The notes under the pieces are model-generated. The model made no database searches and was not told the origin of the DNA. It worked only from the letters and a program-made list of their open reading frames with translations. From NCBI RefSeq assembly GCF_001542905.1, contig NZ_LOAJ01000001.1:2976001-3040000 (forward strand): a stretch of DNA of 64,000 nucleotides, written 5' to 3'. The stretch's first letter is position 1, and each line of letters starts with the position of its first letter. The stretch is from Halorubrum aethiopicum (GTDB taxonomy: Archaea; Halobacteriota; Halobacteria; Halobacteriales; Haloferacaceae). Positions 55,552-57,852 of this stretch are shown here, one piece after another. Position numbers and translations under genes: made by a program.

Positions 55552-56571
55552 ATGACTGAACGCGACCGCCCGCTCTCGCCGGAGCGTCTCGTCGACCTCC
55601 TCGTCGAGGGCGATCGGCGGGAGGCGGCGACGTGTCTGGACCGGTTGAGAACGGCCGACTCCGAGACGCGAAAGGCGTTCCTCCGGGAGATCCGCGACGC
55701 GGCCGGAGAGCGGCCGGGGCTTTTCGAGGGACTGGCCGGCCCGCTGGCCGCGTTCCTGACCGACGACGACCGGGCGGTGAGGCTGACCACGGCCAAACTG
55801 TTCGTCGCGCTGGCGGCGGCGGAGCCCGCGGTCGTCCTGCCGGTCGCGGATCGAGTGGCGGCTCGCCTCGCCGACGACGAGGAGTTCTACTACGTGCGGG
55901 CACGCTGTGCCGAGACGCTGGGCTACGTCGCGCTGGAGTCGCCCGAGGAGGTCGGCGACACGGCGGTTCTGGCGGACCTCCGGGTCGGGCTGTCGTTCGA
56001 CGAACCGGAGGTCAGAGAGAAGCTGGCGAAGGCGCTGAAACACGTGGCGGCGGGCGACCCGAGCCGACTGCGCCACCAGGTCGCCTCGCTGGCGGATCAC
56101 CTCGAGGACGACCGCGAACTCGTCCGCTACCACCTCTGTACGGCGCTTGTCGTGGTCGGGAGCGAGCACCCGGAGCGGCTCTCGGCGGCGGCAGAGGTGT
56201 TCCGGGCGCGGGCGAGCGAGGACGAGAGCCCGTACGTCCGGGCACGAGCCGCCGAGGCCCTCGGAGTGATCGGGCGGTCGGGGTCCGCGGTCGATCCGGT
56301 GCCCGACCTCGACGCGGTCGAGTCGGCGTTCGAGGAGCCGCCGTCGTTCCTGACCGCCCGCGTGGAGTTCCTTCGCGACGTCCTGGCGGACGGCGCGCGC
56401 CCGGCGGGGCCGCCGGAGGGCCCCGGATCCGTCGAATCGATCCGGGAGGGAACGGATCCCGTCGTCGGGGAGATCACCTCTCCCGACGACGGCGAGTGTC
56501 GCCACTGCGGGCTCGACCTCGCGGACGGCGGCCCGCCGACGTGTCCGCGCTGTGGCGCACCCCGCGGATAG
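55552..56571 (+). CDS. HEAT-repeat protein with C-terminal zinc ribbon
   Basis: 339 residues. Residues 15-255 are alpha-helical HEAT-like repeats: DRLRTADSETRKAFLREIRD, RAVRLTTAKLFVALAAAEPA, YVRARCAETLGYVALESPEE, EVREKLAKALKHVAAGDPSR and YVRARAAEALGVIGRSG. A linker leads to a zinc ribbon CRHCGLDLADGGPPTCPRCG at the C-terminus. Such proteins are scaffolds for protein-protein contacts. The ribbon suggests binding nucleic acid or a partner. Its 3' end lies 3 bases before the first iron box, so it is not the iron target. Confidence 0.82.
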   Translation: MTERDRPLSPERLVDLLVEGDRREAATCLDRLRTADSETRKAFLREIRDAAGERPGLFEGLAGPLAAFLTDDDRAVRLTTAKLFVALAAAEPAVVLPVADRVAARLADDEEFYYVRARCAETLGYVALESPEEVGDTAVLADLRVGLSFDEPEVREKLAKALKHVAAGDPSRLRHQVASLADHLEDDRELVRYHLCTALVVVGSEHPERLSAAAEVFRARASEDESPYVRARAAEALGVIGRSGSAVDPVPDLDAVESAFEEPPSFLTARVEFLRDVLADGARPAGPPEGPGSVESIREGTDPVVGEITSPDDGECRHCGLDLADGGPPTCPRCGAPRG

Positions 56572-56573
56572 TT

Positions 56574-56587
56574 TTAGGTCCACCTAA
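56574..56587. promoter_or_regulatory. DtxR/Idr-type iron box TTAGGTCCACCTAA
   Basis: A perfect 14-base palindrome. It matches the haloarchaeal iron-regulator consensus TTAGGYnnRCCTAA bound by Idr/SirR-type DtxR proteins. It lies 42-55 bases before the start of the iron-binding lipoprotein gene, before its probable promoter. Confidence 0.85.
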
Positions 56588-56609
56588 TATCCGGAACTCC
56601 TTTGTATTG

Positions 56610-56623
56610 TTAGGCGGGCCTAA
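56610..56623. promoter_or_regulatory. Second DtxR/Idr-type iron box TTAGGCGGGCCTAA
   Basis: A second perfect palindrome, TTAGGC-GG-GCCTAA, only 22 bases after the first and 6-19 bases before the ATG. Two boxes around the core promoter predict tight, possibly cooperative iron-dependent control. Confidence 0.85.
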
Positions 56624-56628
56624 AGCGT

Positions 56629-57852
56629 ATGTCGAGAGACGACGCGGAAGGCGGTACACCGACGCGACGGGATTACCTGACGTACGGCGGCGCGGTCGTC
56701 GGCGGTGGACTCCTCGCCGGATGTACCGGCGGGAGCGACGCGGAGTCCGCGCCCACGACCGATCGAACCGCGAACGAGTCCGGATCGGACTCGGCGTCGT
56801 CAACCCCATCAAGCGGCTCCGAGTCGGCCGAGGAGTCCTCGTCGACGGACGGGGCGTACTCGGTGACGATGGAGCCGGTGGGAACCGTGGAGTTCGATCG
56901 CGTTCCGGCGACCATCGCCCCGTTCACCGCGGACTACATCGACATGCTGGTCGCGCTCGGGCACGCCGACGCGGTCCAGTCGATCTGGTACCGCGGACGG
57001 TACAAGACGATACACTACGAGGAGCTCGACGGCGTCTCGATCGATCTCGACGGGCTCACCCAACTGTGGAACGACGGCGTCTCGAAGGAGCTGTTCTACG
57101 AGATGAACGCGGACCTCCACCTCATCGATCCCCACGAGCTGACGGACTGGCTCGGCGCGTGGGACCGAGACGATCTCGAGGAAGTTCGGACGAACGTCGC
57201 CCCCTTCCTCGGGAACCTGATCTTCCGCCGAACCGACGACTGGCACGACTACCGGTACTACTCGCTGTACGAGGCGTTCGAGAAGGTCGCCGAGATCGTC
57301 CGGGAACGCGAGCGGTTCGAGGCGATCCGGTCGATCCACGACGAGTTGGTGACGGACGTCCAGTCGCGGCTGCCGGCACCCGAGGACCGTCCCGATGCCG
57401 CCCTCGTGTTCGCCGGCACGGAGCCGGAGGAGTTCACGCCGTATCGGATCGACGGGCAGGGGGCGAACAAGGAGCACTTCCACGCGCTCGGGATATCCGA
57501 CGCGTTCGCCGGCACGGACGTCGAGGGGTACTCCGGGTCGCAGTCGCTCGACTACGAGGCGCTCCTCGAGGTCGATCCCGACTCGCTGCTGTTGCGGTAC
57601 CACCGGGAGGGCATGACGCGAGCCGAGTTCGAGGACACCGTGCTCGCGTATCTGAAGGAACACGAGCTGGGAAGCCAGCTGACGGCGGTCGAGGAGGACC
57701 GCGTGTTCCGCGGCGGGCCGATCTACGCCGGACCGCTACACAACCTCTTCATGATCGAGCGGTACGCGAAGGGGTACTACCCGGGAGAGTTCACCGAGGA
57801 CGAGCTGATCGACCGCGACCGCCTCTCGCGGATCATCACCGAGGGAGCGTAG
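56629..57852 (+). CDS. Iron(III)-siderophore-type ABC substrate-binding lipoprotein
   Basis: 407 residues. Tat-lipobox start: TRRDYLTYGGAVVGGGLLAGC (residues 12-32) with the lipidated Cys32. A Ser/Asp/Glu linker follows, then a PF01497-like binding domain: VGTVEFDRVPATIAPFTADYI, VALGHADAVQSIWYRGRY, KELFYEMNADLHLIDP and the end HNLFMIERYAKGYYPGEF. It would take up Fe(III)-siderophore or heme-like complexes for an importer, but no permease or ATPase gene is adjacent. Two iron boxes precede it, so it belongs to the iron-starvation set. Confidence 0.9.
   Translation: MSRDDAEGGTPTRRDYLTYGGAVVGGGLLAGCTGGSDAESAPTTDRTANESGSDSASSTPSSGSESAEESSSTDGAYSVTMEPVGTVEFDRVPATIAPFTADYIDMLVALGHADAVQSIWYRGRYKTIHYEELDGVSIDLDGLTQLWNDGVSKELFYEMNADLHLIDPHELTDWLGAWDRDDLEEVRTNVAPFLGNLIFRRTDDWHDYRYYSLYEAFEKVAEIVRERERFEAIRSIHDELVTDVQSRLPAPEDRPDAALVFAGTEPEEFTPYRIDGQGANKEHFHALGISDAFAGTDVEGYSGSQSLDYEALLEVDPDSLLLRYHREGMTRAEFEDTVLAYLKEHELGSQLTAVEEDRVFRGGPIYAGPLHNLFMIERYAKGYYPGEFTEDELIDRDRLSRIITEGA

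Follow-up and report, generated by a model that had tools for sequence, protein, structure and literature searches.

A lone gene for a predicted iron-binding lipoprotein in Halorubrum aethiopicum, with two copies of an iron-regulator motif set around its promoter, raises two questions: how such an arrangement could switch the gene, and which importer the encoded protein could serve. We addressed both questions in the 64-kb stretch of DNA that carries the gene, referred to here as the window, in the remainder of the genome and in related genomes.

Two perfect iron boxes bracket the core promoter

A sequence-only reading of the window had described two perfect boxes around the core promoter, 36 bp apart, and both their positions and their spacing proved correct. 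The two TTAGGNNNNCCTAA boxes, 36 bp from centre to centre (Table 1), are the only perfect matches in the window, and 100 shuffles gave none. When up to two mismatches were allowed, the window held three box-like sites against 2.48 expected, which is not above chance. The spacer between the boxes, TATCCGGAACTCCTTTGTATTG, contains both a BRE-like and a TATA-like element, and the ATG of the lipoprotein gene follows 5 nt past box 2. In haloarchaeal promoters, a TATA-like element some 25 nt before the ATG is compatible with a leaderless transcript; the distance of about 25 nt found here fits this, and the lipoprotein transcript is presumably leaderless.

Table 1. Positions of genes, promoter elements and protein features within the window
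Feature	Position	Strand	Basis
HEAT-repeat protein, 339 aa, with C-terminal zinc-ribbon-like Cys pairs	55552..56571	+	Pfam HEAT_2, 50.7 bits
Iron box 1, predicted distal operator, TTAGGTCCACCTAA	56574..56587	.	Motif match
BRE-like element TCCGGAA	56590..56596	+	Read from sequence; CG at this place in oriented 36-bp twins
TATA-like element TTTGTAT	56601..56607	+	Read from sequence; AT-rich stretch here across 58 oriented twins
Iron box 2, predicted promoter-proximal operator, TTAGGCGGGCCTAA	56610..56623	.	Between TATA-like element and start codon
Siderophore-type substrate-binding lipoprotein, 407 aa, orphan	56629..57852	+	Peripla_BP_2, AlphaFold, Foldseek
Tat twin arginine, R13 R14	56665..56670	+	Invariant in 19/19 aligned relatives
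Lipobox LLAGC, residues 28-32	56710..56724	+	Cys32 invariant
Glu154, putative N-lobe permease-docking glutamate	57088..57090	+	Invariant 19/19
Peripla_BP_2 best-matching stretch, residues 179-364	57163..57720	+	Pfam
Glu310, putative C-lobe permease-docking glutamate	57556..57558	+	Invariant 19/19

The lipoprotein resembles class III siderophore-binding proteins

The open reading frame begins with a TRRDYL Tat motif followed by the lipobox, and its product scored 47.1 bits against Pfam Peripla_BP_2, for which the curated cut-off is 27.5. Using an AlphaFold model of the lipoprotein (pLDDT 81, pTM 0.78), Foldseek returned 159 PDB matches at E<=0.001, the best being YfiY bound to ferric schizokinen (3tny), followed by 4mlz, HtsA and CeuE among others, with HmuT at rank 22. 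The model and these matches assign the lipoprotein the class III siderophore-binding fold, and a profile built from 19 relatives likewise matched solved periplasmic iron binders (4mlz, E 3.4e-15). Glu154 and Glu310 sit at what we take to be the places of the docking glutamates of BtuF. An assignment to the substrate-binding protein of the F420-0 ABC transporter (TIGR03868) was rejected, the score being 29.7 bits against a curated cut-off of 392.4. As judged from sequence and model, the protein is most likely a Tat-exported, lipid-anchored class III substrate-binding protein (SBP) for the ferric siderophores of other organisms.

Perfect boxes mark a predicted iron regulon

Across the 3.33-Mb genome we found 15 perfect boxes and three boxes with one mismatch. 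Since a backwards control pattern was commoner than the true box at up to one mismatch over the whole genome (29 sites versus 18), weight was given only to perfect boxes and to where they stand, and one-mismatch boxes were discarded as stand-alone evidence. Three perfect twins are present in the genome, all at 36 bp: that of the window gene and two others, at C1:1910932/1910968 and C1:1914329/1914365, which head the operons SBP-SBP-SBP-oxidoreductase and oxidoreductase-FecCD-ATPase. A fourth pair, 37 bp apart and with a mismatch in one box, precedes a DtxR-family gene in the importer cluster. Ferric-type ABC systems also have boxes, at 596-606 kb and 1136 kb, which accompany an SBP, a permease region and an ATPase; a role of these parts in iron uptake is presumptive, their NCBIfam scores lying under the cut-offs. 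Several boxed genes of the genome carry a single box, 1-12 nt ahead of the start codon.

The earlier suggestion that these boxes are iron-regulon sites is borne out within the same genome, where perfect copies stand before siderophore and ferric-type importer parts and before the DtxR-family gene. The placing of the boxes supports a predicted iron regulon that includes the FecCD/ATPase importer, three more SBPs, a ferric-type ABC system and a DtxR-family gene. For the most part, the orphan lipoprotein gene would be a typical member of an iron regulon that is already known, though the layout of its promoter is unusually rigid.

One gene that reads from sequence as PAS/histidine-kinase-like (L019:5106-6359) has a perfect iron box 1 nt ahead of its start; a gene of this kind would not be expected in an iron regulon. 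In the neighbourhood of the ferric-type ABC components (L016:4626-15870), the boxed genes include a gluconate 2-dehydrogenase subunit with a GMC oxidoreductase, a glycosyltransferase, an RGP-family protein and an LPG-synthase-like membrane protein. In the FecCD operon, an open reading frame of about 46 codons (L018:11183-11328, minus strand) starts 5 nt past the twin, and its stop codon overlaps the start codon that follows. The closest relative, G014, conserves this frame, and an SBP gene takes its place in relatives.

Seven matches to Fe_dep_repress exceeded the cut-off in this genome. The importer-linked DtxR-family gene (C1:1916281-1916694; L018:13284-13694), itself behind boxes, encodes a protein that lacks HHRLLE/LEHH-type ligands in 9/9 genomes, whereas these ligands are kept in three of the four other paralogs of this genome that were aligned. 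The HHRLLE and LEHH motifs presumably hold the usual metal ligands of DtxR proteins. With these missing throughout, the importer-linked protein was rejected as the iron sensor, a role that would then fall to another paralog and, on the aligned sequences, more likely to a metal-competent one.

A boxed FecCD importer is the probable remote partner

Among seven Peripla_BP_2 and three FecCD matches in the genome (two of the latter above cut-off), no FecCD permease falls within the 64-kb window; all three lie elsewhere. The unboxed permease is BtuC, for vitamin B12 (545 bits against a cut-off of 461), and this second confident FecCD permease was thereby ruled out as a partner of the orphan lipoprotein. 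The third match, FecCD-like at C1:2103547, scored 26.3 bits, just below the cut-off of 26.5. The boxed FecCD-ATPase importer lies at C1:1911-1913 kb, 1.1 Mb from the orphan gene; its permease is nearest in the PDB to FhuB, HmuU and BtuC and, when aligned to BtuC, retains the IRLPR and ADxxARL arginines. With BtuC as the sole other FecCD permease identified with confidence, the orphan lipoprotein very probably feeds this boxed importer. The sequence-only reading had proposed that the lipoprotein shares a remote importer and had suggested a search for the same motif before remote permease genes; that search led to the boxed FecCD operon, and sharing holds at the level of genome evidence.

IucA/IucC were not found in the genome, although they were detected in the Haloferax volcanii positive control. 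Foreign siderophores are therefore the likely cargo, with the lack of IucA/IucC leaving room for other siderophore pathways.

The promoter-proximal box is the better conserved of the two

The stop codon of the HEAT gene lies just ahead of box 1, and this neighbour provided a handle on orthologous promoters. True HEAT homologs occur in 8/52 same-genus genomes and an iron box follows in all eight. Box 2 is perfect in each of these eight promoters, with the ATG 5 nt on, while box 1 carries 0, 3, 2, 1, 1, 1, 1 and 1 mismatches at 35-37 bp and is perfect only here. Judged by this conservation, box 2 seems to be the essential box of the pair. The closest relative has the same HEAT-SBP-uridine phosphorylase order with one perfect box and a box 1 with three mismatches; the gene can thus be kept without both boxes being perfect. 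In the wider set of loci examined, a perfect iron box lies within 250 bp downstream of a HEAT homolog in 17 of 33, including the eight in the genus.

In the eight same-genus genomes, the next recognised gene after the HEAT homolog encodes an SBP in seven and FecCD in one, and G024, G022 and G184 have FecCD importer genes within the corresponding stretch. The description of the lipoprotein as an orphan was thus right for this window, where FecCD is absent, but the orphan state is confined to this genome and G014, other HEAT-linked SBPs of Halorubrum adjoining importer genes. In a tree of SBPs, the orphan clusters with those of G014, G053 (from another family) and Halomicrobium katesii (100/100), away from the other SBPs of its own genome, which points to a mobile and patchily distributed lineage.

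The 36-bp layout recurs across haloarchaea

We surveyed 148 genomes of the family for perfect twins with gaps of 8-38 nt, a 22-nt gap corresponding to the 36-bp spacing. Exactly 36 bp separated the boxes in 146 of 197 perfect twins, and in 47 of 48 within the genus, counts that, with related genomes among them, do not represent independent events. By genus, 20/28 had a twin of any spacing and 16/28 a 36-bp twin, and the reversed control pattern gave no twin in any genome listed. Distinct twins in the loci examined were spaced at 36 bp in 73 of 92 haloarchaeal cases and in 0 of 51 from other named organisms, a comparison that leaves out 39 twin-pattern loci (L196-L234) for which no organism was listed. 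With one mismatch allowed, a 36-bp twin was present in 36 of 59 relatives, spanning several families of the order. The twin layout is the usual arrangement, a standard cassette, of this regulon.

For 58 of the 73 haloarchaeal 36-bp twins, those with a convincing downstream open reading frame, we compared oriented with reversed sequences. CG occupied the BRE place in 56/58 oriented twins against 0/58 reversed, and the TATA stretch averaged 6.1 A/T of 7 positions against 2.9. The start codon lay 4-5 nt past box 2 in 29 of the 58, automatic start choice being unreliable beyond 8 nt (for one operon of this genome it gave 70 nt, where the ATG is actually at 4 nt). We favour the core promoter acting as a spacer, rather than helical phasing, as what would set the 36 bp; this distance is about 3.4 turns, so that the boxes should lie on different faces of the DNA. 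We did not find the geometry described in the literature searched, which is weak evidence of absence as the founding motif papers lay outside its reach. Possibly new are the fixed geometry, the tie between the HEAT/zinc-ribbon neighbour and iron genes, and the marine twins described next.

The twin-box pattern alone, used without protein information, also found transferrin-like and Fea1 loci in marine archaea, where 14 twin loci were collected and Pfam was run on seven. Three lipoproteins on Marine Group II contigs matched Transferrin (L145:3159-5270, 138.7 bits; L182:184-2286, 138.1 bits; L159:3950-5026, 60.7 bits; cut-off 20.3). The 704-residue protein at L145 matches both lobes of lactoferrin (E 1.8e-27), and its Asp-Tyr-Tyr places align with what we take to be the ligand positions of lactoferrin. 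Lipoproteins of the Fea1 family (low iron-inducible periplasmic protein) follow directly after twins at L158:2786-4024 (43 bp), L143:3-1067 (34 bp) and L125:6536-7792 (44 bp).

A proposed two-box switch and its alternatives

Taken together, our results favour a two-box DtxR-family switch on a siderophore SBP that serves the single boxed FecCD-ATPase importer, a model to which we give a probability of about three in four and in which the identity of the regulator, repression, the ligand and docking are the predicted parts. With ample iron, both boxes would be occupied by a DtxR-family regulator in its metal-loaded form. Box 2, which follows the TATA element and precedes the start of what is presumably a leaderless transcript, would block RNA polymerase; box 1 would abut the upstream side of the BRE, placing the TBP-TFB footprint between the two. 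As iron runs short, the regulator would leave and the gene would come on together with the importer, its other SBPs and the ferric ABC parts.

One alternative is that box 2 works alone as the operator, with box 1 a weak accessory or kept by chance, so that the twin adds little. The pattern in the eight orthologous promoters (box 2 always perfect, box 1 perfect once and with 1-3 mismatches elsewhere) speaks for this, as do the several boxed genes with just one box 1-12 nt before the start. However, where a second box is present it is held at one spacing across genera, and even the degenerate box 1 stays 35-37 bp off in all eight promoters, which drift alone would not keep; we consider this alternative unlikely, if far from negligible. 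That two boxes simply came together by chance in an intergenic spacer richer in A/T has practically no probability: sites with up to two mismatches are indeed at chance level in the window, but the absence of perfect boxes from 100 shuffles, the equal spacing of the other two perfect twins of the genome and the lack of reversed-control twins in all genomes listed refute it.

Other alternatives concern the proteins rather than the DNA. The lipoprotein may store, sense or hand over surface iron, or bind heme or another iron chelate, rather than feed FecCD. Its gene is away from any permease gene here and in G014, and class III SBPs use one fold for siderophores, heme and B12, HmuT being among the structural matches; against this stand the invariant docking glutamates, the paralogs located in importer operons and siderophore binders as the best structural matches, which together make such a role improbable. 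The boxes could also serve an activator or opposing DtxR paralogs instead of a simple repressor. Several DtxR paralogs are described in Halobacterium iron control (work on Idr1/Idr2, as cited in PMC11349517 and PMC5605881), and the present genome has seven Fe_dep_repress matches and a boxed paralog without the usual metal ligands. Box 2 is nevertheless placed where a bound protein should block polymerase, as described for MDR1 and LrpA (PMC2995911), and we regard an activator or opposing paralogs as distinctly improbable.

Beyond the two-box switch at this gene, the observations may be joined into a wider reading, which we offer tentatively and with less than even confidence: a rigid box1-BRE-TATA-box2 iron-switch cassette, kept across haloarchaeal families, with marine variants and a DtxR tuner. 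Such a cassette would be a 50-bp unit, often with the ATG 4-5 nt behind, on which two DtxR-family dimers would bracket the TBP-TFB complex, and its layout would accompany iron lipoprotein genes that are distributed patchily and probably move horizontally. Marine Group II archaea would have a related layout with other fixed spacings (34-35 and 43-45 bp) before Fea1 and bilobal transferrin-like lipoproteins, and the boxed ligand-less DtxR paralog beside the importer may tune the switch without sensing iron itself.

Tying an isolated lipoprotein to one specific importer of the same genome yields a prediction testable by a single permease knockout. Being sharply defined, the fixed operator geometry can serve as a pattern with which to annotate the iron regulons of archaea not yet studied, and the cassette would be a simple test case for how archaeal repressors deal with a TBP-TFB site that has a box on either side.

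Comparison with known systems

In fold and in lipoprotein or periplasmic role, the orphan lipoprotein resembles class III siderophore-binding proteins (YfiY 3tny, HtsA, CeuE and 4mlz), with which it shares only 13-17% identity. Its predicted regulation recalls the haloarchaeal iron regulon of FerR, a DtxR-family protein (Leyn and Rodionov 2015, as cited in PMC11349517). The latter paper reports that in Haloferax volcanii a ferR signal precedes all fhu genes or operons, and that low iron induces five of the 11 fhuD paralogs by a factor of more than 4. In Hfx. mediterranei, iron ABC genes are co-repressed with an FAD oxidoreductase (PMC11218638). The likeness to the FerR regulon lies in the iron boxes before fhuD/fhu genes and in the many SBP paralogs served by few permeases; the difference lies in the absence of IucA/IucC from this Halorubrum genome and in the 36-bp, BRE-TATA-bracketing geometry, which does not appear in the portions of the texts examined.

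An isolated iron-type SBP has a precedent in HVO_B0047 of Haloferax volcanii, near which no other ABC subunits are encoded (PMC7407949). HVO_B0047 flanks a siderophore biosynthesis cluster, whereas the orphan gene does not. For the proposed block, the counterpart is MDR1 of Archaeoglobus fulgidus, a metal-dependent regulator that is reported to block RNA polymerase but not TBP/TFB (PMC2995911), the polymerase-block model being reported there for both MDR1 and LrpA. The likeness is one of position: box 2 is placed for such a block, and a regulator that binds there would be expected to act in the same way.
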